Positions 33,113-54,306 of a stretch of 64,000 nt of DNA are shown here, piece after piece. The position numbers and the translations under genes are program-made. The notes under the pieces were generated by a model. The model ran no database searches. It saw only the letters and a program-made list of their open reading frames with translations, and was not told the origin of the DNA. Each line of letters opens with the position of its first letter. Position 1 is the stretch's first letter. This DNA is from Streptococcus rubneri (lineage in GTDB: Bacteria; Bacillota; Bacilli; Lactobacillales; Streptococcaceae): contig NZ_SRRP01000001.1 in the NCBI RefSeq assembly GCF_004785935.1, positions 682,001 to 746,000 on the forward strand, given 5' to 3'.

Positions 33113-34987
33113 CTATACTGATTTTGTTTCCCGTTCTAATTTAGTAACATTTTGATTTCTTGTGTTATCAAATATATTGATAAAATTCTCTAATCTCCTA
33201 ACCTTATATTCATAATCATCTATCCATTTAGTCATAAATCTTTGATTTTCTTCGATTTCTTTCTCCACCTGCTCCAGTTTGATAGCTGAAGTCAGGTTCA
33301 TCTTGGCATAGTCATATTTTGCCAGTCTTCTATTTTCTGGGTCTGAGTTGTTGAGATTGATTAAGACCTCTGCTACCTTGTTTAGATGAGCAACCTTATC
33401 CTGCAAATCTGTAATGGTCAAATCCAGCTGGGCGATTTCCTTGATTAACTCATCTTTGATTTCCTGGTAAGACTGATTGTTAAGGTCTAATTCGATAAGA
33501 AGATTCACCTCTGCGATTTTCTCTTTGAGGTTGGCAATGGTTGACCGCCTACGTTTAGGGATATGCGTGCTGCCGTGAGTAAGTTGACGGATTAGTTCAC
33601 GCCCTCTCATGTAACGATTGAGGTCTGAACTTTCTTTGTTATAGATGAAAAACTGGGCGGTCTCTCGTATAAAGACATGGTAGGACTTGTCTTGTTCGTT
33701 CTCATGAATATCCAAGTTTCGGTTTGGGATAAAGACCAAGCCGTCTTTTTTGACGCCGTAATTCATCTTGATGAAAAGACCTTCCTTGACCACCTTATCA
33801 ATCTGATACTCGGCTAGAACAACTTCAAACTCCTGAATCTGGTCATGTTTCTCTTTGAACTCCTTATAGGCTGTTAGGAGTTCCTCACTTGAGAGTTTAT
33901 CCTTGTCCTGATCTTCTTGATAGGTCTTCAAATCATAGACAAAGTTAGTCAAGTCAGACTCTGTTATGCTTTCTCTTTGGTCAAAATAATCCTCAAAGAA
34001 CTGGACATCGTACAAATTCTTCGTACTGACCTTTTTATTCTCTATAGAAATGGTTCGACCGTTCTCAGTCAAGGTAAAGGTCACATGCTTTTTCTTCAAG
34101 GAGATTGTCAGGTTTAACTGCTCTGCCATTTCCAAAAGATGAGAGAGGTCACGGGCTCTAGGCAAAAGAAAATCCAATCGCTGCTCAATGGCTCGTGTCG
34201 CAAACTGCTCTCGGAAATAGTCCTCGGTGTAGAGCTGTCTCTTATCCAGCTGCTTACCGCGAATGACCTGTTTCATCTCTCGGTCAGTCATAAGGAATCT
34301 GGCGTGCTTGTGGGAAAAATCCATCTCCACATTTAGAGCAGAAGCCTTGGCCAAAAAGTCCTCAAAGTTTTTGCTGTGTTTCATGAGAAAATAAAGCCGT
34401 TGCTTGAGTTCAAACTTATGATTGGTCTTGCGGTAAGCCTCAAACTTCTCGTGCGAATAACGGTTAGGCTGGATAATCGTTGCTCCTGCTTCCTTGGCCA
34501 AGCGGTCAGAAATCATGCGAAGGTTTCTCTCTTGAGCGTAATCCCATTTGAGCTTCTTGTCAGAATTGAGGTCGACAGAGTTTATCAGGATATGATTATG
34601 CACATGGTTTCTATCTGTGTGGGTTGTCACGATAAAACGAAAGTTTCCACCTGTCAGTTCCTTAATGGTCTCGTAGCCAATGCGGTTGATTTCCTCTGGT
34701 GTCAGCTTATCATCAGGCGAGAAAGACTGAATCAAGTGATGGGCATGGATTTTAGTTTGTTTGATCTGTTGGCGGTCGTTTCTGGAATCGTAGAGCCTGT
34801 CATTGTTAATTAAGTTGGCCTCATACATATCCACCATCTCCTCATAACTAGGAAAAACCAAATAGTTCCTCATGCCAAAATCAGAAACCAACTTCAACTG
34901 CTCCGTCTTTTCAGGATTGAGAATATACTTGATGAGGCTCTTGCGGTACTTGGTGCTGTGAACCGCAAAGTGCTTAGTGACTACCAT
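33113..34987 (-). CDS. MobP-type relaxase (Tn5252 Orf4/VirD2-like)
   Basis: A 624-residue relaxase. The N-terminal domain contains the metal-binding histidine cluster HTDRNHVHNHILINSVD (about residues 140-156) and an early histidine motif KIHAHHLIQSF (about 80). The central and C-terminal parts are helical with coiled-coil (for example DLQDKVAHLNKVAEVLINLN). It would nick one strand at oriT and pilot it into the recipient. It overlaps mobC by 14 bases. Length and layout match Tn5252-type elements. Confidence 0.92.
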   Translation of the reverse strand: MVVTKHFAVHSTKYRKSLIKYILNPEKTEQLKLVSDFGMRNYLVFPSYEEMVDMYEANLINNDRLYDSRNDRQQIKQTKIHAHHLIQSFSPDDKLTPEEINRIGYETIKELTGGNFRFIVTTHTDRNHVHNHILINSVDLNSDKKLKWDYAQERNLRMISDRLAKEAGATIIQPNRYSHEKFEAYRKTNHKFELKQRLYFLMKHSKNFEDFLAKASALNVEMDFSHKHARFLMTDREMKQVIRGKQLDKRQLYTEDYFREQFATRAIEQRLDFLLPRARDLSHLLEMAEQLNLTISLKKKHVTFTLTENGRTISIENKKVSTKNLYDVQFFEDYFDQRESITESDLTNFVYDLKTYQEDQDKDKLSSEELLTAYKEFKEKHDQIQEFEVVLAEYQIDKVVKEGLFIKMNYGVKKDGLVFIPNRNLDIHENEQDKSYHVFIRETAQFFIYNKESSDLNRYMRGRELIRQLTHGSTHIPKRRRSTIANLKEKIAEVNLLIELDLNNQSYQEIKDELIKEIAQLDLTITDLQDKVAHLNKVAEVLINLNNSDPENRRLAKYDYAKMNLTSAIKLEQVEKEIEENQRFMTKWIDDYEYKVRRLENFINIFDNTRNQNVTKLERETKSV

Positions 34988-35339
34988 AAAACTCCTTCAG
35001 TTGCTGGCATTTAATATTAAAGTCACTTTCAACTTCTTTAATCAATTGACCAATGCCCTGTACCAACAACTCACGGTCACATGGTTTTAAGATGTGAGTC
35101 TGATTGACCGTCCGTGCAATTTGATTAAGGTTGTTTCCGATACGCTTCAGTTCAAAGACCAGATCTTCATAGTTGCTGGTATCAATGGTTAGGAAGGTCA
35201 TGTTAGGGTTAAGCAAAACTTTTCTGGCATAAGCAGAGAAATTTTTACAGCAACTCTGTCCGATACGGTCGTACAAGGTCGCAAGTTCTTGGTCTGTCAG
35301 AAAAACTTTTTTAAGATTAGTTCGGTAACGATTTTCCAT
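34974..35339 (-). CDS. mobC: MobC relaxosome accessory protein
   Basis: A 121-residue MobC-family protein: FLTDQELATLYDRIGQSCCK, then YARKVLLNP, and the family signature FELKRIGNNLNQIARTVNQ, followed by a C-terminal helix. It helps the relaxase open the duplex at oriT. It overlaps the relaxase start and follows the upstream small gene by 2 bases, so the three form one mobilisation operon. Confidence 0.92.
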   Translation of the reverse strand: MENRYRTNLKKVFLTDQELATLYDRIGQSCCKNFSAYARKVLLNPNMTFLTIDTSNYEDLVFELKRIGNNLNQIARTVNQTHILKPCDRELLVQGIGQLIKEVESDFNIKCQQLKEFYGSH

Positions 35340-36068: not shown

Positions 36069-37244
36069 ATGCTGAGTCTTGATCAAATACATTTACTATT
36101 GAATACTCCCGAAGATGTGTTTCATGATTTTAAACAAAAATGGCATCATTCAAAAACTGAATTGGTGCGTGATATCTTAAATTTTGTCAATACATCACAT
36201 CACGAAGATTGTTATATCATCTTTGGAATTGATAATATCACTTTAGATATAATTGGTGTAAACAATGATGATAATAGAAGAAATGAAGAAGATCTAACAG
36301 ATTTACTACATAAACTCTTTATATCAACAAATAATCAAATTAAAATTAGCATACAAACTGAAACTATAGACAACAAAGAAATTGACATCTTAATTATTCA
36401 TGATACAGATAAAGTTCCTGTATTTTTAACAAAAGATTATAAGCCTAAGAAAGATACTGCATTACCAAAAGGATTAATATATGCTAGAAATGGCTCTATA
36501 AATACTCCTAAAGACTCCTCTGCTCCTTTTGAGTTAATAAATAAGTTGTTTCAAAAGTTTAATCATACCGACTTAAATATCAAAGAGCAGTATTTTCATG
36601 TTTTAAAAGACTATAAAAATTGGTTCTTCATTGAAAATGAAGACGGAAGATTTTTTATTTATAATCCTAATCCCGATTTTTATATTAAACTTGCCGACGA
36701 TGATGCAAATCGTTTCAAAACTATGCCTTATAGTTTAAATCAATACCAGACTAATATTGATTGGCAATTAGTACAACTTCGATATCGTCATCTTACAATT
36801 GACGAATGTATGGCTATGTATTTAGATCAAGGTAATTGTCTAGTCCCTTCCCCTGAAGTAGAAAGTTTTAAAATAGATTATCAGGAGACTATTTATTATC
36901 ACTGTTTATACAAAAATACTTTAAAGTACCAATTGCTGAAAGTATTTTCTTCAATACCTGGTCTCGAAAAATATCCTTTAACTAGATTTAAAAATAGTAT
37001 AGTAATTTATGACACAAAATTAGAATTGAAAAAGACTCACAACTTGATAAATAGTAAATTCTCATCAAAAGACATAGTGAATCAACTTGAAGTTACAGAA
37101 AAAGATTTCGATTTTTACTATAAAAAAGCTAGACATAAAAATCCTGATTATAGCATACAAGAAAATCAAGTAAATCTAACTGAATTAAACTTAGTTAGAT
37201 TATTGAATAGTTTTCAAAAAACATATCTTGATAACCCACTATAA
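36069..37244 (+). CDS. AlbA_2 / Schlafen-like ATP-binding domain protein
   Basis: A 391-residue protein whose first 170 residues form an AlbA_2 (divergent AAA-4, Schlafen-like) domain: DVFHDFKQKWHHSKTELVRD, ILNFVNTSHHEDCYIIFGI and the later LPKGLIYARNGSINTP. The C-terminal 220 residues are not recognised. Such proteins occur as regulators and in defence loci. It is convergent with the Gabija-like genes, with a strong bidirectional terminator between. A role in defence is inferred only from location. Confidence 0.75.
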   Translation: MLSLDQIHLLLNTPEDVFHDFKQKWHHSKTELVRDILNFVNTSHHEDCYIIFGIDNITLDIIGVNNDDNRRNEEDLTDLLHKLFISTNNQIKISIQTETIDNKEIDILIIHDTDKVPVFLTKDYKPKKDTALPKGLIYARNGSINTPKDSSAPFELINKLFQKFNHTDLNIKEQYFHVLKDYKNWFFIENEDGRFFIYNPNPDFYIKLADDDANRFKTMPYSLNQYQTNIDWQLVQLRYRHLTIDECMAMYLDQGNCLVPSPEVESFKIDYQETIYYHCLYKNTLKYQLLKVFSSIPGLEKYPLTRFKNSIVIYDTKLELKKTHNLINSKFSSKDIVNQLEVTEKDFDFYYKKARHKNPDYSIQENQVNLTELNLVRLLNSFQKTYLDNPL

Positions 37245-37276
37245 TCAATCTTTTTAACTAGTAAAAAAGATAAAAC

Positions 37277-37319
37277 AGGCATAGAAATTAGTTTATCTAA
37301 AAAACTAATTTCTATGCCT
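37277..37319. terminator. Bidirectional terminator, 18-bp stem
   Basis: The arm AGGCATAGAAATTAGTTT at 37277-37294 has its perfect complement at 37302-37319 with a 7-base loop. It separates the convergent AlbA_2 and GajB genes. Confidence 0.8.
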
Positions 37320-37328
37320 TAATCATTA

Positions 37329-39191
37329 TTAATTAATAACATCAACTAAATTGGATTGAGTCAACAATGAATATATCTCATTAATATTTCTATTATTTTG
37401 CGGACTATTATTTCTCAATTTACAGTATGTGAATATTAAGTGACTTTTTGCTCTTGAAAGTGCGACAAAGAACGCACTTTTATCTTCTTCCGGTTGATCA
37501 TTAAAACTCCAGAATGCAGAATCCTCCAAGCCTAGAAAATAGACTACCTCATATTCTAATCCTTTACTCTTATGGATAGTCATAATTGGAATTGAGTTTT
37601 CACCCTTGAAACTAGAGACTGTATCTAGCCATTCACCTTGTGTTTGAGAATATTCTATGTATAATAACTTTGAAAAGTTCTTGACAATGATATCTAGGTC
37701 ACTTTTTCCATTGTATGTTGAAAAATTGGAAATAATTCTTTTTTCATCTATTTTTTCAATAATACAATCAATTAATTTTATCATACTTTCTTCATTGGGA
37801 ATAAAATTTGAAATTAGGTAAGTAATATCACTAACTATATTGTCAATCTCCTTATAAGATTTTGCTAAAATTAAATCATCAGTAAATTCATCTATTCCAT
37901 TGATATTTCCATAAAAATTACTAATATTTTCCCAAATTAAAGGATCTCGTTTTCCTTGACTACATGATATTAAATCTAATAATAGGTTACAAGTAGGGTC
38001 TTTTAAAAGTTCTTGATATTCATTTTCAATTCTTGCTTTAATCCCTTTACTGTTTAATGTAGTTATCAATTTTGAACTATAATCATCAACCTTCTGTTTT
38101 GCTAGGATACAAATTTCTGATGGTCGTATACCTCCTTGAATTTTTGATTCTATATCATTTGCAATTAACTCAGCTTCTAAACTTTCATTTTCAAATTCAA
38201 ATAATGTTATTTCACCCTCTTGAAATTCTGGATAATTATTTGTCTGAATAGATCTATGATTACTATTTAATATCTGATGAACCTCTTTTTGAAATTCTAC
38301 AAGTTTAGGTACAGAGCGGTGATTCATCAATAATTGATATTTATTTGAATTAAAGTCTCGAATATAGTCTGGAAAAATATCAGGCTTTGCACCTGCCCAT
38401 CTCATAATGGCTTGATTATTATCACCTACTGCAGTCAATTTACAAGTCGAATCTAAAAAACATATTTTTAATAAATTATACTGGTCATACGTAGTATCCT
38501 GAAATTCATCTAAAAATACAAATTCATATGTCATTCGAAGTGCTTTACAGACGTATTCGTTATTAGCTATTATTTGAGTAGCCAACTTTGTTATTTGTCT
38601 GTAAAAAAGGACTGGCTTATTACTCTGAGTACCTTTTAACAGATCATTTTTTATAATTGAATCATTATCACTCAAGGCAATACTTTCTGCAATTTCCTTA
38701 ATGCTATTCATCCTCATTCCAGTAGTATTTAATCCATTTCTATAAAGAACCTCTTTTATGACTTCCATTTCTTCAATCAAATAATCTTTCGACGGTCTTA
38801 TCTCTCCAGGAAGAACATTTCTAAATTGGTCTAAAATCCTCTTTTCAAATGCTGAATAAGTTAGAGAGGTAAATCGAGAAGCATATTCAGCCCCATAACG
38901 TTTTTTCACTCTTTCTTTCAAATTTGATGCAGCATCTGTCTTAAAACTTAATGCTAAAATTTTTTTCGGAGAAATACATTTATTTGTAGAGAAAAGATAG
39001 TCTAACTTTTGAGCTAATAATTCAGTTTTTCCAGCACCTGGTCCAGCAATGACTAGACAGTTGGTCACATCCTTGGCAGCTCCTAAAGCAGCCTTCTCTA
39101 TATTAATATCTACTTTAGGATGCCACTCTTCATTCTTCATCATGTTCAATAACTCCAAGTAATTCTTCAGCTCGTTTAACCATTTTTTCAA
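37329..39191 (-). CDS. gajB: UvrD/Rep-like helicase, GajB of a Gabija-like system
   Basis: A 620-residue SF1A helicase. Walker A is AGPGAGKTELLAQKL (about residue 50), DEAD-equivalent FLDEFQDTTYDQY (about 228), motif III region AVGDNNQAIMRWAGA, and motifs V/VI TIHKSKGLEYEVVYF and VALSRAKSHLIF near the end. In Gabija, GajB binds the GajA nuclease complex and is activated on sensing DNA termini. It overlaps gajA by 62 bases, as expected for the pair. It is longer than the Bacillus prototype (about 490 residues). Confidence 0.85.
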   Translation of the reverse strand: MKKWLNELKNYLELLNMMKNEEWHPKVDINIEKAALGAAKDVTNCLVIAGPGAGKTELLAQKLDYLFSTNKCISPKKILALSFKTDAASNLKERVKKRYGAEYASRFTSLTYSAFEKRILDQFRNVLPGEIRPSKDYLIEEMEVIKEVLYRNGLNTTGMRMNSIKEIAESIALSDNDSIIKNDLLKGTQSNKPVLFYRQITKLATQIIANNEYVCKALRMTYEFVFLDEFQDTTYDQYNLLKICFLDSTCKLTAVGDNNQAIMRWAGAKPDIFPDYIRDFNSNKYQLLMNHRSVPKLVEFQKEVHQILNSNHRSIQTNNYPEFQEGEITLFEFENESLEAELIANDIESKIQGGIRPSEICILAKQKVDDYSSKLITTLNSKGIKARIENEYQELLKDPTCNLLLDLISCSQGKRDPLIWENISNFYGNINGIDEFTDDLILAKSYKEIDNIVSDITYLISNFIPNEESMIKLIDCIIEKIDEKRIISNFSTYNGKSDLDIIVKNFSKLLYIEYSQTQGEWLDTVSSFKGENSIPIMTIHKSKGLEYEVVYFLGLEDSAFWSFNDQPEEDKSAFFVALSRAKSHLIFTYCKLRNNSPQNNRNINEIYSLLTQSNLVDVIN

Positions 39192-41199
39192 ACACAGGAG
39201 GTAGAAATCTTTTTAATTCATTATCACTAATAGATGATAAAAATTGCATGTGAGTTGTTGGTTTTCCTCTACCTAAAAAGAAATATTGATACCAAATCAT
39301 GAGTTTCTTTTCCTCTTCAGTAAAACTATCACCTGACCCACTCTTATCTTTTAAAGTAGCTCTTATTGCTTCCTCTTTACGTTTGTTGAAACCTTCTAAC
39401 TGCAATCTATCAAGACAGTCTAAATCACTCAATTTCACTTTTTTACTACTTCCATCCGAATCATTATATGAAACAACTGGTCCTTCTATTGAGGATAAAG
39501 TATTCAGATAATTGTCTTTATAATGTTGTAGCATCAAGAAATCAATATCTAAAGGAGATGAAAAGTAGACATTAAATTCTTCGAGTTTATTAAACCAATT
39601 ATTCAGGCGTGGTGCATCTATTGATTCAAACTCTCGTTCTCCAATCTCACTGAAATCAAGTCCCTGAGTGCGGAACCATTCTCGGAACTCTGTGTTCAAC
39701 TCATACAAATATTCAGAAATATATTTTATTCTTCCCCAACCGCCACCGTATCTCTCATTATCAAAATCCAACAAGGTAATATGAGGAATTCTGAGAGCAT
39801 TCAATAATTTCCAAAAATAGTTGACATGTCTGCCCCCTAAAGGGACAATTGAAATCTGAGAACTATCTACCTCTTTCCCAAGTAAATCAAAAAACTTTGG
39901 TAATAGCAGTTCCTCACTGTCGCCTTCACCTAGAACTATTAACTTCGCAAAATATAGTTCAGGATAAGCTTGAATTGCTCCTTTAATATATTTATAAGAT
40001 TCATCTATAGCTGGAGGTAGCTGTATATCAGAAACAATGGTTTGAAGAACTCTGTCATTATTTTCTATTCTTAAATACTTCAAATCTTCTGGGTCAATTC
40101 TTTTTACAATAGCTGGAGAATGTGACGTTAAAATTACTTGAGAGTTGTCATTATTGCCTAATTGCTTAAACCTTTTTATCAGTTTTCCAATGTGATGTGG
40201 AGCAATATGATTTTCTGGTTCTTCTATTGCTAGGATAGTTAGTACTGGTGGAATCAACTTAAATCTTGGATTATCAGGATTTTCTTCACGGTCTTTGTTA
40301 ATTTCTAACTCAATATCAAGTATCGAATCAACAAGTGAAAAATAAAAAATAGATCTCAGTCCATCTCCTAGATCTGAAACTGTAAATGCTTCTTCAGTGG
40401 TTGTTGGTGAAAATTTTAAGGCAATCTGTCTAAGTGCTGCCCCCATCTCAGAAGAATTAATAATCAACTCTGCTTGAGAAAAACGGTTATCTTCATGATA
40501 TAATTCCCATGATTTCTGAATCTCATTGTTGATCTGAGTCAATGCTCCATTTTCAGATAAAAAGGTGTTATTCAACTCATCAATTTTATCTGTAATTTCA
40601 TTTATCTCATCTTCGGTCCAATTTATACTATTTACCAACCTACTTAACATACTACCTGAAGCATTTCCCAACTCCTTCTCAGGCGTTCTTGAAGCAGGTA
40701 CATAAAGTACCCTAATTTTATCCAAATCCTTTCTAGGAGCACGATGTTTGTCTTCATCTCTAATAGTATCTTCATCAGATGAAATATAATAAATTTGAGT
40801 ATCAATACTTCCTTCAACTGTTCCATCATCTTCCCAGGAGGATTCTAATCTGATTCGTAAAAAAGGTTTTGCACCATCTTGAGAAACTGAAAAGTGCTCG
40901 AAAAATGTTGGAATGGCTGGTCCATAGACCGTTCCATCAAGTTCATCAAACTCAAAAATAGTTTCTATAAAAAGATTTCTTGTGTTTTCACCAGGTCTTA
41001 ACCCTTTTGGTAAATGAAAATCACTTTTTCGAATGATTCTATCACTTTGTTTATCTGAAAATAATTTACTCAATGCCTGTAATACACTTGTCTTTCCTGA
41101 ACTATTATTCCCTATCAGTACAGTTTGATTATTAAAGTTAATTGCTTGACACTCCCCAAAAGATCTAAAATTATTAATAACCATTTTTGTTAACTTCAT
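39130..41199 (-). CDS. gajA: OLD-family ATPase-TOPRIM nuclease, GajA of a Gabija-like system
   Basis: A 689-residue class 2 OLD nuclease. The N-terminal ABC-type ATPase has Walker A LIGNNSSGKTSVL (about 33), signature VSDLGDGLRS and Walker B LAIEEPENHIAP, then SHSPAIVKRI. The TOPRIM nuclease starts at VLGEGDSEELLLPKF (about 428) with LLDFDNERYGGG for metal binding. GajA cuts phage DNA when nucleotide pools fall. It is the first gene of the two-gene operon. The 689-residue length exceeds typical GajA (about 580) because of C-terminal insertions. Confidence 0.87.
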   Translation of the reverse strand: MKLTKMVINNFRSFGECQAINFNNQTVLIGNNSSGKTSVLQALSKLFSDKQSDRIIRKSDFHLPKGLRPGENTRNLFIETIFEFDELDGTVYGPAIPTFFEHFSVSQDGAKPFLRIRLESSWEDDGTVEGSIDTQIYYISSDEDTIRDEDKHRAPRKDLDKIRVLYVPASRTPEKELGNASGSMLSRLVNSINWTEDEINEITDKIDELNNTFLSENGALTQINNEIQKSWELYHEDNRFSQAELIINSSEMGAALRQIALKFSPTTTEEAFTVSDLGDGLRSIFYFSLVDSILDIELEINKDREENPDNPRFKLIPPVLTILAIEEPENHIAPHHIGKLIKRFKQLGNNDNSQVILTSHSPAIVKRIDPEDLKYLRIENNDRVLQTIVSDIQLPPAIDESYKYIKGAIQAYPELYFAKLIVLGEGDSEELLLPKFFDLLGKEVDSSQISIVPLGGRHVNYFWKLLNALRIPHITLLDFDNERYGGGWGRIKYISEYLYELNTEFREWFRTQGLDFSEIGEREFESIDAPRLNNWFNKLEEFNVYFSSPLDIDFLMLQHYKDNYLNTLSSIEGPVVSYNDSDGSSKKVKLSDLDCLDRLQLEGFNKRKEEAIRATLKDKSGSGDSFTEEEKKLMIWYQYFFLGRGKPTTHMQFLSSISDNELKRFLPPVFEKMVKRAEELLGVIEHDEE

Positions 41200-41505: not shown

Positions 41506-41836
41506 TTGTTACCAATTATAGTATGCCCCTTTTACTTGATAACGCTATTATAACATTTAAAAATTAAAAAATAGGTTCTAAATTAATAGAAAGTATAATA
41601 CTAAAATTAGAATTTTTCGTGATAATTCTATAAAATGTTACTTTTCTAATAAACTTGTACTTATTTCCTTCAAATTACACAACTCTCTAGTTGTTGTAAG
41701 TTTTTAATTGACTCAAAGGTATTCGATATAATTACAAAACAGTGTTTTACTTTATAGTTGGCCAATATCATTTAATTTTAACTAAAAAAATCATTATACA
41801 AATCAAGCTACTAAAGATGAATTTATGATATACTAC

Positions 41837-41863
41837 TGATAATAAATTGTTATCGGTAGGAGA
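41837..41863 (+). repeat. 27-bp inverted repeat, left site (candidate recombination site)
   Basis: It is identical to the reverse complement of 45380-45406. The centre has arms GATAA and TTATC around the asymmetric 7-base spacer TAAATTG. Extending outward gives CTACTGATAA against CTACCGATAA, arms matching at 9 of 10, the architecture of a tyrosine-recombinase core site. The inner end contains the ribosome-binding site TAGGAGA of the SHMT-like gene. Confidence 0.8.
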
Positions 41864-41868
41864 AGTCA

Positions 41869-43110
41869 GTGTATAAAATTAATAAATTTGAAGGTGAAAT
41901 CTATCAGAAGTTAAATAAAATTCTTGATTCATATAACCAAGAACAGAATAGCGTAGTAAATCTTGCTGCATGTATTAGCTATCCATTCACCGAAGTATTA
42001 GAGATTCAAAGTTTCCCTCTCGCTACTCTGCCAACAGAGGGAGCTGTTGAAAAACGCTTTTTTCCTCATTGTACTTCATTGGATAATATTGAAATATATT
42101 CAGAAGAATTGTGTCTTCAACTTTTTGATTTAAATCCTGGTGATTATAGAGTTAATGTGCAACCACATTCAGGAACTCAGGCTAACCAAATAGTCTATAA
42201 TTGTGTTTTAGAAAGTGACGATTATATTTTATCGTTATCTCCAAAAGACGGAGGACATATTTCACACACTTATACAGGCAAAGGTACTGTAAAATATTAT
42301 CACTTAGATCATGATTTAAATATTGATTATATCGAATTAAAGGAATTATTAGATAAATATAAACCTAAATTGATTATTATTGGTGCTTCATCGTATGGAA
42401 ATGAATTTAATTATCAACAAATTTATGAAATTATAAAAGAGGTTAGCCCCAATACCCTTATTTTAGCGGATATTTGCCATAGTGTTTTATATATTATGGC
42501 AAAGCTACATAAGTCGATTTTTCCATATGTGGATTTCGTTACTTTTACAATGGATAAATGCTTACGTGGGCCTCAAGGAGGAGTACTAATGTATCGTTCT
42601 ATATTTGAAGAAAAAATAACTAATTCAATTTTTCCAAGAACACAGGGAGGTCCTACACAAAATGCATTATTTGCGAAATGTATCTGTTTAATCAAATTAT
42701 TATCAATAGATATTCAAGATTATGCACAACAGGTTATAAAAAATACTTTATTGTTTATAAAACAATTAAGTAAAGAAGGGGTTGATGTTGTTTATAAAAA
42801 CTCAAAGACTCATATAATTTTAGTTAATCTACTGAATCTAAACTTGAGTGGTAAGGATGCAGAGAATCTACTTTTTCAACATAAAATATTAGTTAACCGA
42901 AATCAAATTCCAAATGATACACACGGACCAATGACGACTTCAGGAATAAGATTAGGAACAATCGGAATTACAAATTTATCCTATACTGATGATGATATTA
43001 AAAAATTAGCTAAACTAGTAGCTAATTTATTAAAATATAAACAATATGATTATTCCATATATTTAGATCTCATTCGCAAGTACCATGAACAAATTAATAT
43101 CTCCAATTAG
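41869..43110 (+). CDS. Divergent serine hydroxymethyltransferase-like PLP enzyme
   Basis: A 413-residue fold-type I enzyme aligning with GlyA end to end (GTG start, TAGGAGA upstream). Conserved: VNVQPHSGTQAN, GGHISHT (cofactor-stacking His), DICH (Asp for the PLP nitrogen), the PLP lysine in TMDKCLRGPQGG and the substrate arginine in TSGIRLGT. Changed: the residue before the lysine is Asp instead of His, and the folate-side ENY motif is LAACISY. It is probably a PLP enzyme with altered or folate-independent chemistry, not a second housekeeping SHMT. It is convergent with the STAND-type ATPase, stops overlapping by 17 bases, inside the inverted repeats. Confidence 0.85.
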   Translation: MYKINKFEGEIYQKLNKILDSYNQEQNSVVNLAACISYPFTEVLEIQSFPLATLPTEGAVEKRFFPHCTSLDNIEIYSEELCLQLFDLNPGDYRVNVQPHSGTQANQIVYNCVLESDDYILSLSPKDGGHISHTYTGKGTVKYYHLDHDLNIDYIELKELLDKYKPKLIIIGASSYGNEFNYQQIYEIIKEVSPNTLILADICHSVLYIMAKLHKSIFPYVDFVTFTMDKCLRGPQGGVLMYRSIFEEKITNSIFPRTQGGPTQNALFAKCICLIKLLSIDIQDYAQQVIKNTLLFIKQLSKEGVDVVYKNSKTHIILVNLLNLNLSGKDAENLLFQHKILVNRNQIPNDTHGPMTTSGIRLGTIGITNLSYTDDDIKKLAKLVANLLKYKQYDYSIYLDLIRKYHEQINISN

Positions 43111-45373
43111 GAGAAAGACCTATACAGAAATTATATTTTTTGTAAGGAATCAACAGATAGTATTTAGTGAGTCCGTCTTGATAATCATCAATATAAGTTT
43201 TTTCACAAACAAAAGGAATATCATCAAATTGTTGTAAATTGTATACTATTTGAAATTTATACCAAGGATCGTCTATGAGTGGAATTTCTTCCTCAAAATT
43301 TCTTAGTGAATTTTGAAATTCTGTAAAAGAGATTCTTTCAGAAATCAATTCAATAATTAATTTGTTTAACTTGAGCATCCTAATATCTAAGGTCAAAGCT
43401 TTAGGACATTCTTGAAGTGATTTATTTATATACTTCAGAGATTGTTGATAATTTTTATTCATCAAAAAAATAATTGATTTATTACAATATGGTTCAAAAA
43501 TTTCATTTGAATCATATTTTTTTAGTATTTTTGTGGCCTTATTTAGATTCTCTAAAGCTATATCATATTCTCCGTCCCAGATATTAACAACACCTAAATT
43601 ATTATATACTGTTGCAACAGGTATTTGATATTCATTACGTTGAAAATAGTCCAATGCTAGTTTGAGATTTTCGGTAGCTTCTTTAGTTGGGAAATAATGA
43701 GCAGAATTTCGTAAAATAATATAATAGAAGTCGTCTTTTTCTACAGAATTCATGCTTTCATTAAGGAGTTTAATTGCCTCTCGATCTTTACCTAAATGAC
43801 CATAAGCATTTAGCTTGTAGAGTAATGTTCCAGAGCAATTTTCTAACTTTTCCAGTGATTTTAGCGCCTCCTCAAATTCATATTTTTGAATTTGAAATCT
43901 AGGATAGTATAGCTGTAAATCTTTTGAATAATTATCTTTTTGAAGACTGTTTAAAATAGCTAAACCTCCATTAAAATCAGAAATCCACTGGTACGAGTTC
44001 AATATATAATGTAAGTATTTTTCGGGTAATAATTCTATTAAATGAAGTATCTTCTTACTCAAAGATACAATGTAAAAATATGAATTTTTCCTGTATTCGA
44101 TTTCAAGTAACTGTTTGATATATTCTACATTTTGCCGCAACTCTTCAATATTACATATATTTATTAAGCAGTGAATTAAATAAGCTAACTCGCCACCAAC
44201 TCCTATAGATAGGATAGTTTGCTCTAAATATATTTTTAGATTGTTGGTTACTAATTGAAGATCAGAAGCATTTGTGTGATTTAAAATACCATTTACAATT
44301 GATTCGTGTGAAATTTTGATTTTATCATTTGTATCTCCATTAATATAGACAAAACCTGCATCAATAAGGGATTTTAGAGAATCAACTACTTCAGTATTTT
44401 CGTCTAATATAGATTTAATGTAGTTAAAAACTATATCTTTTCTCATACCAGCAGGAAAAATCGATGATATGATAAGTATATTTTTTTGAATATCTGGAAG
44501 TTTGTCATATATATCAGAAATATTAAATAATTCTGAATTTGGATTATCAATAAGTCTGTTAATAATTAATTCAATATCTTTATAATTACCTTGTGTTATC
44601 TGCCATATTTGATTCAATTTGACATTATCAAGTAAAGCAATTTTATTTCTTATTAGTAATTTACACTCATCCTCAGTAAGATACGATAAATTTAATACAG
44701 TAGGAGTATAATTGTCCAATGTATCTAGTTTATCAATCGATTTTATCTTATCATTTGTTCGGTTTATAATTGTTAAAGAGATTCCGCTTTGAAGTGTATT
44801 AAAGTCATCTTCAAATTTTATTTTTATATCTTCAGATAAAAATTGATAATTATCAATAATAATATTAAGACGGATTTTTTTTGAAACATGACTGAAATAT
44901 CTTAAATATAAATCATTTTCAAATATTCCCTCCTTTATTTCAGTAATAACTTCTTCCCAAGGATAATCAATTACTTTTTTGTAAGTTGTATCGAATGCAA
45001 TAAACGATCTGATTAACCTAAAACTATGTTTCAGAGTTAGATTTGTTAGTTTTTGTTTTCTTAAATAATTTGAAAACGAATATTTTTGAGGTATTGATAA
45101 GCATAGATTTCTTCTGAATTGTGTTGGGACATACGCTCCTTTTAGTAGATTTTCAAAAAATTTATTACTTTCAAACCCATCATTTATAACATCAATGTAG
45201 AGAATAAAGGCTTCTTTATCATGGCTGTAAACTTGTTGACAAACCTCTTTGATTAGCTCGGTTTTACCACTACCACTTAAACCATTAATAATATATAAAC
45301 TATTTTTATCATTACTAGAAAATTTAAAATGCTGTTTTAATTCTTCTATTTCAGTATCGCGACCGTAATACAT
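43094..45373 (-). CDS. STAND-like P-loop ATPase with C-terminal TPR-like repeats
   Basis: A 759-residue protein. The NTPase module starts at residue 1 (MYYGRDTEIEELKQHF) with Walker A INGLSGSGKTELIKEV (about 30) and Walker B-like LNIIIDNYQFLSED (about 165). A winged-helix-like segment (FPAGMRKDIVFNYIKSILDE) follows about residue 310. From about 440 to 700 there are TPR-like helix pairs (for example VATVYNNLGVVNIWDGEYDI). This layout is that of STAND sensors such as NLR-like defence or signalling ATPases, but no effector domain is fused. The convergent SHMT-like enzyme is the obvious partner. It shares the same 5' leader through the inverted repeat. Confidence 0.8.
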   Translation of the reverse strand: MYYGRDTEIEELKQHFKFSSNDKNSLYIINGLSGSGKTELIKEVCQQVYSHDKEAFILYIDVINDGFESNKFFENLLKGAYVPTQFRRNLCLSIPQKYSFSNYLRKQKLTNLTLKHSFRLIRSFIAFDTTYKKVIDYPWEEVITEIKEGIFENDLYLRYFSHVSKKIRLNIIIDNYQFLSEDIKIKFEDDFNTLQSGISLTIINRTNDKIKSIDKLDTLDNYTPTVLNLSYLTEDECKLLIRNKIALLDNVKLNQIWQITQGNYKDIELIINRLIDNPNSELFNISDIYDKLPDIQKNILIISSIFPAGMRKDIVFNYIKSILDENTEVVDSLKSLIDAGFVYINGDTNDKIKISHESIVNGILNHTNASDLQLVTNNLKIYLEQTILSIGVGGELAYLIHCLINICNIEELRQNVEYIKQLLEIEYRKNSYFYIVSLSKKILHLIELLPEKYLHYILNSYQWISDFNGGLAILNSLQKDNYSKDLQLYYPRFQIQKYEFEEALKSLEKLENCSGTLLYKLNAYGHLGKDREAIKLLNESMNSVEKDDFYYIILRNSAHYFPTKEATENLKLALDYFQRNEYQIPVATVYNNLGVVNIWDGEYDIALENLNKATKILKKYDSNEIFEPYCNKSIIFLMNKNYQQSLKYINKSLQECPKALTLDIRMLKLNKLIIELISERISFTEFQNSLRNFEEEIPLIDDPWYKFQIVYNLQQFDDIPFVCEKTYIDDYQDGLTKYYLLIPYKKYNFCIGLSPNWRY

Positions 45374-45379
45374 AAAACA

Positions 45380-45406
45380 TCTCCTACCGATAACAATTTA
45401 TTATCA
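45380..45406 (-). repeat. 27-bp inverted repeat, right site (candidate recombination site)
   Basis: A perfect inverted copy of 41837-41863. The outer arm differs (ATAGTGATAA here, CTACTGATAA on the left) while the spacer TAAATTG and the inner arm with the ribosome-binding site are the same. That is the pattern expected if recombination keeps the inside homologous and swaps the outside. Confidence 0.8.
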
Positions 45407-45464
45407 CTATACAAAGCACTCAAATAGGTTTATAATAGCATGATTATTGATAAAGGAGATTTTT

Positions 45465-46361
45465 ATGGATTATAAGCTTATTTCTACTTACTTAGATTAT
45501 TGCAAAACTCATAAGCGTTTGAGTTCACACACGATTCGAGCTTATAAGAATGATCTTATGCAATTTTATAATTCAAACTATGATAATGTCGAATCCTATA
45601 TCGAAGAGTTGACACAATCTAACATAAAAACGAATACATTAAGAAGAAAAATTGCTTGTATAAAGGTGTTTTATAACTATCTAAAATACCAGCACATAAT
45701 TGAAGAGAATCCCTTCAATCAATTACGCTTTCAATTTAGAACTGAAAAAATATTGCCTAAAACGATTCCGTATGATATTCTGAAAAATATTTTTTCATAT
45801 TTAGAGCAGAGAGTAGTTATATCTAAAACTGACTATCAAAAACAAAAAGCTGAAAGAAATCTACTAATTATTTCCCTATTACTTTCAACAGGTATCAGAA
45901 TTTCTGAACTTTGTCACATTCATCTCAAAGATATTAATCTTTCCAATAAGACACTCCATATTATAGGAAAAGGTAAGAAAGAGCGTATCCTATTTTTAGG
46001 AGATCAAACAACCTTCAATTTATTAGAAACATATATAAATAAAAACGGAAAGGAATCTAATGATTTCCTATTCCCAGGAAAACATTCGCCTAAACCATTG
46101 TCAGAGCAAAGTGTACGTTTAATTTTAAAGAGAATCGTTGAACAAAATAGCTTATCTAAAACTATTACACCACATATGTTTAGACATAGCTTTGCAACAA
46201 TGCTTCTAGATAATGATGTAGATATTCGATATATTCAACAAATTCTTGGACACAGTTCTATATCAATCACACAAATCTATACTCACGTATCTCATTCAAA
46301 ACAAAAAGAAATACTTAGTTCTTTCAATCCTATGTCAGTGATTCATTCTGAAATCGAGTAA
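45465..46361 (+). CDS. Tyrosine recombinase (XerC/XerD-like)
   Basis: A 298-residue recombinase; ATG 45465 is chosen because AAAGGAGA lies just upstream. The N-terminal SAM-like core-binding domain (YLDYCKTHKRLSSHTIRAYK) is followed by the catalytic domain with all residues: Arg in STGIRISELC (about 145), Lys in GKGKKERIL (about 175), H-x-x-R in PHMFRHSFAT (about 240), His in LGHSSISITQ (about 263) and the nucleophile Tyr in QIYTHVS (about 272). It lies 59 bases outside the right inverted repeat and is the natural candidate to act on it. It is separate from the element's serine integrase. Confidence 0.92.
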   Translation: MDYKLISTYLDYCKTHKRLSSHTIRAYKNDLMQFYNSNYDNVESYIEELTQSNIKTNTLRRKIACIKVFYNYLKYQHIIEENPFNQLRFQFRTEKILPKTIPYDILKNIFSYLEQRVVISKTDYQKQKAERNLLIISLLLSTGIRISELCHIHLKDINLSNKTLHIIGKGKKERILFLGDQTTFNLLETYINKNGKESNDFLFPGKHSPKPLSEQSVRLILKRIVEQNSLSKTITPHMFRHSFATMLLDNDVDIRYIQQILGHSSISITQIYTHVSHSKQKEILSSFNPMSVIHSEIE

Positions 46362-49388: not shown

Positions 49389-50477
49389 TCACAATTCTAA
49401 ACATTGAGAGGTTTGTCTTACTGGTTGATTCCTCAATGTCTCTTTTGTAGTCTCGATCATCAATTGTAAATCTGATTTCTTTTCCCGAAGAATATCGTTC
49501 CAGTCTCTTTTTTCTTTCCCAGATTCATTATCAGGTAAATCCAGTAAAACAGGAAATCCTGATTGAGATAACTTATCAGAAAAATCTTTACCTGCATCAT
49601 CACAATCTACCGCAAGTGTCAATAAATCAGGATGATTATTGAAATAGGTAGTGGTATCACGAATTGTATTGATCAAAGGCAATAACTTTGAAGGTGTTAC
49701 TGTATCTAAGAATTCCAACTTCTGATTTTCTTCAGCTATCAGTCGTAAAGTTTGATAAGCGACAACAGACCTTTTTAATCCCTCCATAGATACCAAGCGA
49801 ACATCTGATAGACTTTGTTGATGAAGTTCGTAATAGCTCATCAAGTCGATGAACGATTCACAAAAGACCAGTCTATTTGGTTTACCAATGTCAAAGGATA
49901 TTCCAACATGTCCATGGCTTCCTTTTAGAATCGTTTTTAACCTTTCTCTAGGAAGAGAGTGATTCTTATAAATTCCTTGTAAGCTTGTTGCCTGCAGTTT
50001 GTGACGATGATCAAAACTTTTAAAAACAATAACAGGTTCAACAGTTTCATTTGTTTTCCAACTGGCTTGTGCTATCAAACCTTGTTGAATCATCTTTTGT
50101 ACGATTTCTTCTGAGATTTCTCTACATTCTGTTAAATAATATCTAGCCAGACTACAGCTAGAATCTTCTATTCTCTTTAAAGGATAATAAAATGGTCTAT
50201 CTCTATTTTCTTGAACAGCTTCTTTTTGAAAAGGTTCTTCAGAAAGAAAGGCTAGAGCTTCTTTAAAGGAAATTCCCTTAACAAGTCGAACAAAATCAAT
50301 GACATCACCTTGAATATCTCTTGAAAACCATTTAAAAGTATTGGTAGTTGAAAAAATCCGAAATGAATCGTGTTCAGAATGCTCATAGACACTGCTCGAA
50401 ACTTGTTTAAAGTAGATACCTAAACGATTGGCTACATCAAGAATTGAAATTTGCTTACATTCCTCTATATTCATCAA
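49389..50477 (-). CDS. TOPRIM-type primase-like ICE protein (DUF3991)
   Basis: A 362-residue protein. The N-terminal ISILDVANRLGIYFKQVSSS and FKWFSRDIQGDVIDFVRLVK form the primase zinc-domain-like DUF3991 region. The later RLVFCESFIDLMSYYEL and LTLAVDCDDAGKDFSDKLSQ supply the TOPRIM Glu and Asp-x-Asp. It likely primes complementary strand synthesis in the recipient during conjugation. No cysteine zinc knuckle is seen, which is usual for this ICE type. Confidence 0.85.
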   Translation of the reverse strand: MMNIEECKQISILDVANRLGIYFKQVSSSVYEHSEHDSFRIFSTTNTFKWFSRDIQGDVIDFVRLVKGISFKEALAFLSEEPFQKEAVQENRDRPFYYPLKRIEDSSCSLARYYLTECREISEEIVQKMIQQGLIAQASWKTNETVEPVIVFKSFDHRHKLQATSLQGIYKNHSLPRERLKTILKGSHGHVGISFDIGKPNRLVFCESFIDLMSYYELHQQSLSDVRLVSMEGLKRSVVAYQTLRLIAEENQKLEFLDTVTPSKLLPLINTIRDTTTYFNNHPDLLTLAVDCDDAGKDFSDKLSQSGFPVLLDLPDNESGKEKRDWNDILREKKSDLQLMIETTKETLRNQPVRQTSQCLEL

Positions 50478-51295: not shown

Positions 51296-51460
51296 CTAAA
51301 ACAAGCGCACGGCATTTAAACCCCCAAAAAAACCGAAATGCGTTGAAAGCGTATGATCAGTTTTATAATGACTAGATAATAGATGATGAAAATCAGGAAT
51401 ATCCAAAATCACATTCTTATGAAAACTCTTTTGAACTTTTGAAAAGCTTATGTTAGTCAT
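51296..51460 (-). pseudogene. Truncated second ABC ATPase gene
   Basis: From ATG at 51460, overlapping the end of the exporter gene, the frame reads MTNISFSKVQKSFHKNVILD IPDF in two pieces, the N-terminal strand pair of an ABC ATPase ('x-F-x-K-x-x-K-S-F-x-x-x-V-I-L'). After residue 24 it turns into unrelated sequence and stops at 51296, before the Walker A. The cluster therefore once had, or was cut from, a further transporter gene. The 51162-51295 spacer otherwise holds only a weak terminator-like hairpin. Confidence 0.5.
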
Positions 51461-52982
51461 GTTTTAGAACTCTTCTCACAACAACCAACTCCCCATCCTT
51501 GATTTCCCAGACCTGGTCAAATCGTTCTAACGCCTCTTCTTGACGGTGGAGGGTGATGATAACAGCACTTGGCAAGCTGAGAACCTTGTCCAATTCCTTT
51601 TGAAACTGGCTAGCATCCAAGGCAGAAAAAGGCTCATCCATGATAATCAGCGGACTCTGACGATTTTTCTCACGATTAAGATACATGCGTTGTTGCTGTC
51701 CACCTGATAGAGATTGGGGTGGTGTCTTTTCAAACTCCTCATCCCTGAAATTCTCATCTAAAGTCTTGAAAATGGTGACATTATTGTCATAAGAAGAAAT
51801 AAAAGTATGCTCCTGCTGCAAAATCATACCAAATTTGCCCCAGAGTTGATGAACAGGGAGATGATCAAGTAAGATTTCGCCTTGAAAATCTCGGTCAGTC
51901 CCGTTTAAAATGTTGAGCAGACTACTCTTTCCAGAACCATTTTCGCCGATGAGGGCAATCTTGTCCCCCTTGCGAATTTCAACGTGGGGAATAGTCAAGC
52001 TAGACTCCCCCAGTCGCTTGGTGATATGGTTTAGCATCAGGGTCTCGAAAGACATCTGAGGTGCCTGAACAGCGGACGGACAGCTGACAATTGCTTGAAA
52101 ACTTTGCACCACAGGTTTGACCGACTCCAGCATTTGCAAGTCGTATAGGATTTCCTGAATTGGCTCCGAAAAAGCAGTGATATAGCCAAAGCTAGCCACA
52201 ACCTCAGGAATGCCCAACTGCTGGGTGGCAAGGGAGTAAGCGAGATAAGCGAAAAGGACAATGCTGATAAACTCAAAGGAAAGCCCCGTCAGCAGGATAC
52301 CCATGATTTTGGTCAAACCATAGCCCAGATACTTATCCTGCAAGGTGTTTAGAGCATTTCGTTGCTGGTCCTGAAAGCCAGACAAGGTGACTTGATTGAC
52401 CAGATGGTGTCCCTTGAGCAAATCCTCCAAAGTACGATAGTAATTTCCCTGCTTTTCTAGATAAACCTGCCGACGTTGGGCGGTTAACTTCCCCACAATC
52501 TTGGGAATTTGAATACTGACAGCTGTCGAAACAAGCAAAATCAAAGCGACCAAAGGATTGATGGTGCGACTAATCACCACAGTGTAAATGAGAATCCTCA
52601 GAATTTGCTTGATAAAACTCATAAGAGGTGGTAGGTAGTCCTTCTCCAAGGAATCTAGGTCGTTTGATTGATAGGAAATGTACTCTGCCACCGTTTTCTG
52701 CTTGAAATCGTGGTGTCCCAGCTCCAAAAGCGCCTGAAACCAGTCATTTTTAAGATGAGTGGAAAAGAGAATTGCCTGCTTCCAATCCAAACGCATCTGG
52801 ATATAGTTGCAACCCAGATAGCACAACACCGCCAGGCAGTAGCCATACAAGGCAATTTGATAATGCCCCCTAACCAATTCCTGGGTGAAATAGGGTAGCA
52901 AGGCAGTGCAGACATTGGAAATACCACCAAAAACCAGATTAAAGAAAAGATACCAACGCAGCGGTTTAAGATAAATCTGCAT
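51453..52982 (-). CDS. ABC transporter, fused permease and ATPase (RiPP exporter)
   Basis: A 509-residue half-transporter. Six membrane helices occupy residues 1-290 (for example GYCLAVLCYLGCNYI and FISIVLFAYLAYSLA). The ATPase has Walker A LIGENGSGKSSLL (about 348), signature LSGGQQQR (about 425) and Walker B LIIMDEPFSALD. It carries no C39 peptidase. It overlaps the second radical-SAM gene by 17 bases and is the last intact gene of the RiPP operon, so it most likely exports the matured peptide. Its base composition is visibly richer in GC than its neighbours, suggesting separate origin. Confidence 0.88.
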   Translation of the reverse strand: MQIYLKPLRWYLFFNLVFGGISNVCTALLPYFTQELVRGHYQIALYGYCLAVLCYLGCNYIQMRLDWKQAILFSTHLKNDWFQALLELGHHDFKQKTVAEYISYQSNDLDSLEKDYLPPLMSFIKQILRILIYTVVISRTINPLVALILLVSTAVSIQIPKIVGKLTAQRRQVYLEKQGNYYRTLEDLLKGHHLVNQVTLSGFQDQQRNALNTLQDKYLGYGLTKIMGILLTGLSFEFISIVLFAYLAYSLATQQLGIPEVVASFGYITAFSEPIQEILYDLQMLESVKPVVQSFQAIVSCPSAVQAPQMSFETLMLNHITKRLGESSLTIPHVEIRKGDKIALIGENGSGKSSLLNILNGTDRDFQGEILLDHLPVHQLWGKFGMILQQEHTFISSYDNNVTIFKTLDENFRDEEFEKTPPQSLSGGQQQRMYLNREKNRQSPLIIMDEPFSALDASQFQKELDKVLSLPSAVIITLHRQEEALERFDQVWEIKDGELVVVRRVLKHD

Positions 52983-53991
52983 AGACTATACTCCTTGCTA
53001 AAGCTGTTTTTTTGCATATCGTAGAACAATTTCTACTGTCTCCCGATTCTGATAATGCAATACCAGGACATTGCGTACAATAATTAGAAATCGCACATGT
53101 ACTACAATTCTTACTGTTTTTTAAAGTGTATTTTGCTATCTTATTGAAAGCCGATCTATTCCATATTTCTCTGATAGGGGTCAGATATATATTTCCAATA
53201 CTCCTACTGTAAAGAGAACATGGTTGTACTGCTCCTAAACATGTTATATATAGTGATAACTCCACAGAACTACACGTTAAAAAATTTTCATTCTTATGAA
53301 CAAAAGTAACACCATTTATTTCATCTATTTTTTTCTGTATTGGAATTAGTTGTTTTAGAGTCAACGATTTCACTCTAACCTCATTTCCTATCGTACCTCT
53401 CCTTGGAACAATTTGGGTATCAACCTTATATTTGAAATTATTTTTCTTACAAAAATCATATACTTTATCAATGGAGTTAATGTTTTGTAAAAATAGAGGT
53501 GTTTTTACCTCTACTAGAATATCAAATTTCTTTAATAATTCTAGATTATGAAGACATCTTTCCAATGAACCTTTTTTATTGGTAATCTGATCGTGAATCT
53601 CTTTATCCATTGAGAATATTGTACAAGAAATATAATCAATATATAGATCTGACAAAATTGCAATACGTTGCTCATTCAACATTGACACATTTGAATAGAT
53701 AATTACATTGAAAAACATTTCCCTAGCAATCTTAATATATTTCATAGCAAAAGGATGTGCAAACACTTCTCCTCCTGTAAAAACAATTTCAAATGTACCT
53801 AACTCTCGTAATTGAACTAAGAGATTTCTAAAAGTATCTAAATCAAATCCTTTCTGATTATATTCTGAAATGTAACAATGTTCACATCTCCAATTACAAA
53901 ACGAAGTTATTTCAATCGTTACTGAGTATAAATTACGATTTTCTCGGTATAATTTTATAACATCTGTTATATCTTTAATAGTTTCAGTCAT
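52966..53991 (-). CDS. Radical SAM/SPASM maturase 2
   Basis: A 341-residue enzyme from ATG 53991 (AGGAG upstream; a longer frame from 54033 is less likely). The radical-SAM cluster is in SFCNWRCEHCYI (about residue 35), then the GGE motif in VFTGGEVFAHP. A C-terminal SPASM-type region carries cysteines SLYITCLGAVQPCS, KNCSTCAISNYCTQCPGIA and CSTICKK for auxiliary iron-sulfur clusters. It installs a radical-made linkage in the adjacent precursor. Paralogous to the enzyme at 54307-55356, with the precursor gene between them. Confidence 0.92.
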   Translation of the reverse strand: MTETIKDITDVIKLYRENRNLYSVTIEITSFCNWRCEHCYISEYNQKGFDLDTFRNLLVQLRELGTFEIVFTGGEVFAHPFAMKYIKIAREMFFNVIIYSNVSMLNEQRIAILSDLYIDYISCTIFSMDKEIHDQITNKKGSLERCLHNLELLKKFDILVEVKTPLFLQNINSIDKVYDFCKKNNFKYKVDTQIVPRRGTIGNEVRVKSLTLKQLIPIQKKIDEINGVTFVHKNENFLTCSSVELSLYITCLGAVQPCSLYSRSIGNIYLTPIREIWNRSAFNKIAKYTLKNSKNCSTCAISNYCTQCPGIALSESGDSRNCSTICKKTALARSIVYADLS

Positions 53992-54076
53992 GCATATCAC
54001 AACTCCTAAAAAGGTAAGCAAAGAATGATACAAGTTAAAATTATTTAATCATCCTTTGCATTACCTTTAGCAACGT

Positions 54077-54095
54077 CTAATCAAAAGTTGATTAG
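54077..54095 (-). terminator. Stem-loop over the precursor stop codon
   Basis: CTAATCAA and TTGATTAG (8 bp, 3-base loop) overlap the TAA of the precursor gene. It lacks a T-run. It may act as a transcript stabiliser or partial terminator that raises precursor over downstream gene expression. Confidence 0.5.
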
Positions 54096-54217: not shown

Positions 54218-54306
54218 GAACCCTCTCTCCTTTCCCATCATGTAGTACTTATATGCCTCTCTCCAGAGGAATTAAAAATAACACTTCATATCTCTCTAAC
54301 TAAAAA

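Follow-up and report, generated by a model that had tools for sequence, protein, structure and literature searches.

A candidate invertible dock with exchangeable gene cassettes beside a tyrosine recombinase in Streptococcus

Surface and restriction genes are known targets of DNA inversion, and integrons combine a fixed recombinase and promoter with exchangeable promoterless cassettes. Here we describe a locus that shares features with both, found in a 64,000-nt stretch of Streptococcus rubneri DNA (contig NZ_SRRP01000001.1, positions 682,001-746,000, forward strand; hereafter “the window”, within which coordinates are counted). Two convergent genes, encoding an SHMT-like enzyme and a putative STAND-type NTPase, lie there between inverted copies of a 27-bp site, next to a tyrosine recombinase gene. 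We refer to the recombinase gene, its two sites and the promoter motif outside the far site as a “dock”, and to the enclosed genes as its cassette or cargo. Judged by the comparisons below, the dock has the inverton features for which it was tested, namely inverted sites, a recombinase with the catalytic motif, and both orientations of the segment between the sites.

Phase-variable inversion by a tyrosine recombinase has been described for PsrA at the pneumococcal hsdS locus, in the accessible part of that report (PMC7096588). The dock is like such invertons in its inverted repeats, adjacent tyrosine recombinase and two orientations; unlike them, its whole segment consists of promoterless convergent genes, and the sites supply the ribosome-binding sites of the end genes. 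It differs from PsrA/hsdS further in that the cassette is interchangeable between docks and that an hsdS domain occurs neither in the window cassette nor in the 20 scanned cargo representatives. Its likeness to integrons lies in the fixed recombinase and promoter and the exchangeable promoterless cassettes; it differs in holding a single cassette between two identical inverted sites, with no attC-like site noted (attC was not searched for). Integron membership was rejected, since the recombinase scores 105.7 bits against the integron-integrase model TIGR02249, far below the cut-off of 265, and each cassette lies between two inverted sites that are nearly identical. Thoeris and caspase/TIR systems are represented by cargo types of other docks (ThsA with TIR, caspase with a ThsB-like TIR), unlike the SHMT-like and STAND cargo of the window; a tested Thoeris of S. 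equinus is presented as an operon in the available text of PMC12578639. In Escherichia coli, the serine recombinase PinQ inverts cryptic prophage DNA and acts on adsorption of phage T2 (PMC12529663, available portion). That inversion affecting phage interaction, a feature of PinQ, is the point of likeness to the dock; the recombinase class differs, and exchangeable cargo goes unmentioned in the same portion. No description of the dock was found in the open-licence PMC literature (most subscription papers lay beyond the search), nor in the available parts of PMC12529663, PMC11514479, PMC11868660, PMC7096588, PMC5903667 and PMC7563491. The dock with its exchangeable promoterless cargo is an inverton variant for which the literature searched held no description.

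We think it probable that the dock, a recombinase, two inverted sites and one far promoter around an exchangeable, invertible cassette, is a switch, likely of immune genes. On this account a single small dock inverts whole modules and, in the long run, exchanges them, Thoeris-type genes included, in many streptococci; similar docks with a related recombinase occur in Campylobacterota. Site and recombinase would then serve as a search handle for new candidate immune pairs, cell-by-cell phase variation of innate immunity as a way to manage its cost would become directly testable, and carrier cultures may be mixtures hidden from standard assemblies and annotation. A preliminary description of this DNA had recognized the invertible cassette; it had missed the 11 interchangeable cargo types, the Thoeris-type genes and the recurrence in another phylum.

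Anatomy of the S. rubneri locus

Two convergent genes had been reported between identical 27-bp inverted repeats with near-palindromic arms around the spacer TAAATTG, and this holds on direct reading of the letters: TGATAATAAATTGTTATCGGTAGGAGA at 41837-41863 returns as its exact reverse complement at 45380-45406 (Table 1). Both repeats sit within the longest-ranked inverted pair of the region (33 nt, 94%), and the perfect inverted repeat of 27 nt compares with a maximum of 20 and a mean of 13.8 in 100 mononucleotide shuffles of 41700-45500. At up to three mismatches, this pair accounts for all copies of the site in the S. rubneri genome. Each repeat does include, as previously stated, the ribosome-binding site of the neighbouring gene: the Shine-Dalgarno-like GGTAGGAGA stands just 5' of the start codons GTG 41869 and ATG 45373 (minus strand). 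The two cargo genes overlap by 17 bp at their convergent ends.

The recombinase gene begins at ATG 45465 (the longest open reading frame at TTG 45447), leaving a gap of 58 bases to the repeat by our recount, which agrees within counting with the 59 given earlier for an XerC/D-like recombinase outside the right repeat. Its product matches Pfam Phage_integrase (E=1.2e-44) and, aligned to XerD, retains TGIRISEL, HMFRH, GHS and QIYTHV; the catalytic motif of tyrosine recombinases is R..HxxR..H..Y. The promoter match in front of this gene is conserved among docks, and such consensus matches are about as frequent there as in shuffles.

Table 1. Features of the dock and its Gabija neighbours in the window
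Feature	Position	Strand	Basis or remark
Gabija GajB	37329-39191	-	PADLOC E=1.3e-223; neighbour, outside cassette
Gabija GajA	39130-41199	-	PADLOC 1096 bits; neighbour, outside cassette
Extended -10 promoter motif TATGATATACT (TRTGN + TATACT)	41824..41834	+	Outside distal site, pointing into cassette; putative function
Distal recombination site; spacer TAAATTG 41843-41849, inner arm with Shine-Dalgarno GGTAGGAGA	41837..41863	+	Conserved across 57 cassettes
Cargo gene 1, SHMT-like PLP enzyme, 413 aa, promoter-side here	41869..43110	+	Pfam, curated-model score, alignment
Cargo gene 2, putative STAND-type NTPase of 759 aa with TPR repeats, recombinase-side here	43094..45373	-	Pfam
Proximal recombination site, exact reverse complement of distal	45380..45406	-	
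Outward promoter-like site of recombinase, TATACA-17-TATAAT, -35 abutting proximal site	45408..45436	+	Consensus match; putative function
XerC/D-like tyrosine recombinase, 298 aa	45465..46361	+	Pfam, curated-model score, XerD alignment

The SHMT-like protein matches Pfam SHMT well above the cut-off (E=7.5e-78) and scores 296.7 against the curated SHMT model, below its cut-off of 335. In alignment, the lysine that binds pyridoxal phosphate (PLP) and the RLG arginine are retained; ASEN has become ACIS, the Tyr of KYAEG is Pro, and the His before the lysine is Asp. Canonical SHMT identity was rejected on the curated cut-off and the loss of several residues used by SHMT, and the product of 41869-43110 is probably a PLP enzyme with a different reaction. 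The partner matches Pfam TPR_12 above the cut-off and AAA_16 and nSTAND6 below it; its AlphaFold model (pLDDT 50) was too poor for a fold search, and no solved structure matched it at E<=1. Pfam and PADLOC scans found neither ThsA nor a TIR cyclase in the window cassette, so that its cargo is not Thoeris, and a weak PADLOC match to mad8 (E=3e-4) covers about 50 residues. Within the genus, the SHMT-like protein occurs in 8 of 284 genomes at E<=1e-60 and the STAND partner in 8 of 279 at E<=1e-10, each of the latter inside such a cassette (up to three candidates were scored per genome); every full-length copy of either that we found lies inside such a cassette. The STAND gene is broken in G200, and G099 has an extra truncated SHMT copy beside a one-site dock.

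Inversion and cargo exchange across genomes

The site occurs at up to three mismatches in 53 of the 284 genus genomes, with zero hits for a reversed-pattern control. Named relatives with its exact pattern include S. mitis, S. oralis, S. infantis, S. parasanguinis, S. pseudopneumoniae, S. suis and S. thoraltensis, and also Granulicatella (L124/L170, from a separate site search and outside the set that follows). That set comprises 57 complete cassettes: 51 from genomes, five plasmid loci and the window. Left out were single or broken sites (L047, L054, L061, L063, L069/L070, L094, L095, L104/L105), one orphan site (L077), a locus with site, recombinase and the first codons of an SHMT-like start without a cargo match (L086), and one with full second-PLP cargo and recombinase, in which a second site was not found and N runs lie beside the first (L096). 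As L043 matches L046 at 100% identity and L057, L078 and L080 are closely related, locus counts do not equal independent events.

In all 57 cassettes, the cargo genes are convergent and one end is flanked by a homologous recombinase gene whose start lies some 60 bp beyond the site; this gene seems broken in L049, L090, L091, L092 and L102 and is cut by the contig end in L055. One genome, G200, holds three docks (L090, L091 and L092) with three different cargos, their recombinases all apparently broken. Clustering gave 11 cargo types, 7 of them seen in both orientations (Table 2). The labels are backed by Pfam, PADLOC and NCBIfam scans of representatives, apart from those read from the sequence and not from database matches: “STAND-like” for C5, C14 and C18, “membrane” for C0, “GNAT-like” for C8 and the nuclease-like N-terminus of C18. 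C15 has an nSTAND6 match below the cut-off, and a relative of C8 in Aliarcobacter is annotated as a GNAT acetyltransferase. The membrane gene C0 is frameshifted at one homopolymer tract in 4 of the 11 polyprenyl cassettes (L044, L049, L055, L101), intact copies also being present, which is possibly a second, slippage-type switch, or a sequencing error.

Table 2. Cargo types and orientation (cassettes with the first-named gene on the promoter side : on the recombinase side)
Cargo type	Ratio
Polyprenyl synthetase + membrane protein	6:5
SHMT-like + STAND	4:5
Methyltransferase + GNAT-like membrane protein	3:4
ATP-grasp + STAND-like, subtype one	5:2
ATP-grasp + STAND-like, subtype two	1:3
Second PLP enzyme + STAND-like	1:2
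C6/caspase/ThsB-like TIR/C7	3:2
TIR + ThsA	0:5
Divergent TIR + ThsA (L088)	1:0
C6 + C7	3:0
Glycosyltransferase + 1014-aa protein	2:0

When every locus is drawn with its recombinase at the right-hand end, the window, G047, G099 and plasmid NZ_CP018188.1 have the SHMT-like gene in the far position; in G063, G077, G132, G200 and G219 it is the gene nearer the recombinase. The window and G063 agree over 1 kb to the left (99.8%) and to the right (99.9%), and share a 3.5-kb cassette at 99.8% that is inverted between them. G047 and G219 show 100% identity in the two 1-kb flanks and inside the cassette, yet are opposite in orientation, with one base differing within a site; L057 and L080 carry the cassette of L078 at 100% identity in inverted form, between flanks of 97.4-100%. 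Among same-cargo pairs with both flanks at least 97% identical, four of eight are inverted and four are not, the eight not being independent in that L057, L078 and L080 provide three of them. The preliminary description had predicted that the segment inverts between its repeats and had proposed comparing orientations among relatives. That comparison upholds the prediction: related genomes hold the same cassette the opposite way in the same dock, the change falling at the repeats, and a fixed orientation everywhere is refuted.

The position of the crossover can be narrowed. In G047 and G219, variants immediately outside the sites remain with the dock, and an inner-arm variant, GA, travels with the SHMT-like gene (far side in L060, recombinase side in L099), which together place the crossover within about GATAATAAATTGTTATC. 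The 7-bp spacer is common to both sites of a locus in 57/57 cases, four spacers existing overall, as expected if both sites recombine. By recombinase clade, it is TAAATTG in 18 of 22 loci of clade A and TAAATAG in all 20 of clade B; the remainder is mixed (8, 5, 1, 1), a class that holds broken recombinases because clades were set by open-reading-frame identity to the window recombinase. Inversion of the cassette is well supported by these comparisons, which also point strongly to the adjacent recombinase as its agent. If the repeats were instead operators of a shared regulator, and the opposite orientations old rearrangements, their near-palindromic form and their location in 5' leaders would be accommodated; we rejected this very improbable reading on the opposite orientation of the otherwise identical G047 and G219, and on spacer identity and recombinase adjacency in all 57.

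Two assemblies bear on inversion within a culture. In G123, both dock contigs end 8-9 bases into the cassette, in the start ATACTATGG, which the two polyprenyl-cassette genes have in common elsewhere. In G255, one contig stops at the site's inner edge and another, with glycosyltransferase-type cargo, 4 bases past the outer edge. Such breaks are as expected from both orientations in one culture and are only suggestive of mixed cultures. Contigs end within 30 bp of a site in at least four genomes (G102, G123, G173, G255), and possible mixed orientation was read from G123 and G255 alone among them.

Replacement of cargo in the same dock is likewise well supported. In 75 locus pairs drawn from 27 loci, both 1-kb flanks are at least 90% identical and the cargo differs, with no cassette DNA match at E<=1e-5 in these pairs. 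Position by position, identity across the 60 bases outside the sites is 0.90 on the distal and 0.97 on the proximal side; within the site, 24 of the 26 positions show 0.91-1.0 and positions 18-19 show 0.63-0.68, and past the site, into the cassette, the mean drops to 0.30-0.32. Fifteen pairs have cassettes at least 99% identical though the right flanks of their docks are below 95% (lowest 81%), and identical Thoeris-type cassettes sit in docks whose right flanks are 81.5% alike. The route of exchange may be the recombinase or homologous recombination in the flanks.

Promoter position, expression and possible role

An extended -10 element, TGNTATACT, stands directly outside the distal site in 55 of the 57 cassettes, and the flanks behind it fall into several unrelated kinds. 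The two cassettes without it are L088, at a contig end, and L102, with a decayed recombinase. Outside the proximal site the element occurs in 0/57, and a conserved motif there reads as the -35 of an outward recombinase promoter; in Granulicatella the element is likewise on the far side. Because the motif is on the distal side alone, inversion should decide which gene is expressed strongly, the distal gene being predicted to be strongly and the proximal gene weakly expressed. Earlier it had been proposed that both genes stay translatable, which fits the anatomy, and that inversion exchanges outside promoters; with a clear motif on one side only, the latter is better read as strong versus weak expression than as promoter A versus promoter B.

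In the mechanism we propose, a dock would consist of the recombinase gene, two inverted copies of its site, a strong promoter outside the far site and a promoterless convergent cassette, which the recombinase would invert between the two sites. Whichever gene lay on the promoter side would be expressed via the Shine-Dalgarno inside the site; the other would be weakly expressed, having no recognisable promoter and meeting antisense read-through. A culture would be divided into enzyme-high and partner-high cells and, over evolution, whole cassettes would be replaced by others at the same sites. Most cargo pairs would join a small-molecule-producing or -modifying enzyme (TIR, SHMT/PLP, ATP-grasp, polyprenyl synthetase, methyltransferase or glycosyltransferase) to a sensor- or effector-like partner (ThsA, STAND-like NTPase or membrane protein), with anti-phage immunity, kept heterogeneous to limit its cost, as the likely role. 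Both the expression switch and the immune role are what we infer from sequence.

A role in defence is suggested by the ThsA, TIR partner and caspase cargo of docks, and by Gabija next door in the window. ThsA is clear in the L082 and L088 cassettes (E=2.5e-151 and 8.3e-100), its TIR partners match Pfam TIR_2, with the candidate PDC-S66 as best PADLOC model, and a caspase and weak ThsB-TIR matches are found among the cargo of other docks. Cassettes with non-immune cargo might instead phase-vary a surface, metabolic or signalling trait; this would suit the SHMT, polyprenyl synthetase, methyltransferase, ATP-grasp and glycosyltransferase pairs, which have no convincing PADLOC match, and invertons are frequently near surface genes according to the available part of PMC11892184. 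We consider it unlikely, however, given that Thoeris-type and caspase/TIR genes occupy the same dock and that Gabija adjoins it in the window.

The sites might also serve cassette exchange, as an integron-like landing site, with both genes expressed from both sides and inversion a neutral by-product. This is possible, though we doubt it: cargo replacement is frequent, orientation is near 50:50 in the larger types (enzyme on the promoter side: SHMT 4:5, polyprenyl synthetase 6:5, methyltransferase 3:4) and Thoeris is understood to require both proteins at once, but the strong promoter motif is conserved on one side alone, and, at the cut-offs used, plasmid matches of the methyltransferase and both ATP-grasp proteins fall solely in docks, across phyla, as if their function needed the dock.

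Several findings weigh against the switch that we favour. The best argument is that the need of Thoeris for both proteins fits a strict either/or switch badly; moreover, the main TIR + ThsA form has one orientation in 5/5 cassettes, only L088 being reversed, so that expression of the proximal gene is quite plausible. Matches of the TIR partners to ThsB models are weak (5e-8, 6e-7), and PADLOC recognized no known defence system in the two cargo proteins of the window. Evidence on orientation is all between genomes, save for the assemblies broken at site edges; there, the G123 cassette was sought and not found, its cargo type being guessed from 8-9 bases, and the other junction of G255 is missing. 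With several recombinases broken, not all docks can be active by themselves. Among recombinases at least 95% alike, 35 of 179 pairs have the same cargo, whereas shuffling gave a mean of 17 and never reached 35 in 500 trials, and by this measure cargo is partly inherited with the dock; its replacement could be explained by homologous recombination in the flanks.

A bolder extension of the proposed switch, to which we give little credence, would make the dock an immune platform in at least two phyla: enzyme and sensor/effector halves would reach strong expression in separate cells or at separate times, both being high only in a cell that had just flipped, and inversion would act as a safety catch or trigger. 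The same tentative proposal would add a set of undescribed immune systems on the Thoeris plan, namely the SHMT-like/STAND, ATP-grasp/STAND, polyprenyl-synthetase/membrane, methyltransferase/GNAT-membrane and glycosyltransferase/nuclease-STAND pairs.

Relatives outside Streptococcus and neighbouring genes

A plasmid search with the recombinase returned relatives in Aliarcobacter and Paenibacillus (36-40%), adjoined by convergent genes of the same families. By phmmer, non-streptococcal ATP-grasp proteins match C1 at about 1e-41 to 1e-54, one STAND-like protein matches C5 (9e-12), the GNAT protein C8 (4e-32) and the methyltransferase C9 (5e-55), E-values that are generous owing to the small target set; the 818-aa Paenibacillus partner matched none of the cargo clusters. 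Between the Aliarcobacter plasmids pACRY43158 and pM830MA the flanks run collinear at 99.8-99.9% identity, and a cassette of 3,458 bp is inverted at 99.9% identity; the dock recurs in A. faecis pAFAEC (92-98%), where it holds different cargo. In the Paenibacillus plasmid, a perfect inverted repeat of 30 bp takes in the Shine-Dalgarno. In both genera the recombinase points toward the cassette, unlike that of Streptococcus. Across 72,556 plasmids, the methyltransferase and two ATP-grasp proteins were matched solely in docks (3, 1 and 1 records at the cut-offs used). In Aliarcobacter L188 (9344-10752), a third small gene, annotated YbaK/EbsC, lies beside the ATP-grasp gene and its large partner, so a dock may hold more than two genes, like the caspase/TIR type. 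Polyprenyl synthetase and recombinase each match a second place in plasmid CP020439.2.

At order level, the recombinase was found at E<=1e-90 in 21 of 395 genomes (20 of this genus and G355), and at class level at E<=1e-75 in 11 of 398, all of this genus. The Paenibacillus recombinase was found in none of 299 genomes of its phylum, in a search without a positive control. Viral contigs held no relatives of the SHMT-like protein, site or recombinase, and phage records gave a single 154-bp match to the recombinase and none to cargo C8. The wider site search covered 62 stretches, two of them from metagenome bins. In L143 (3473-4440, in a bin labelled Erysipelotrichaceae and perhaps misbinned), a 69% recombinase stands beside the site, and the contig breaks off 2 bases inside the inner edge of that site; L168, from a Bacteroidales bin, lacks both cargo and recombinase and is probably a chance match.

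Next to the window dock, gajA, gajB and a candidate defence gene, PDC-S50 (Schlafen AlbA_2), form a small defence island within 36069-41199. A relaxase, MobC and a Toprim-like protein are encoded nearby (33113-35339 and 49389-50477), so the island is probably within a mobilisable or conjugative element. Farther out are a LanM-type lanthionine synthetase (28153-31143) and, at 51453-55687, an ABC transporter, two radical-SAM/SPASM proteins and a PqqD-like protein; both regions are likely peptide natural-product clusters.

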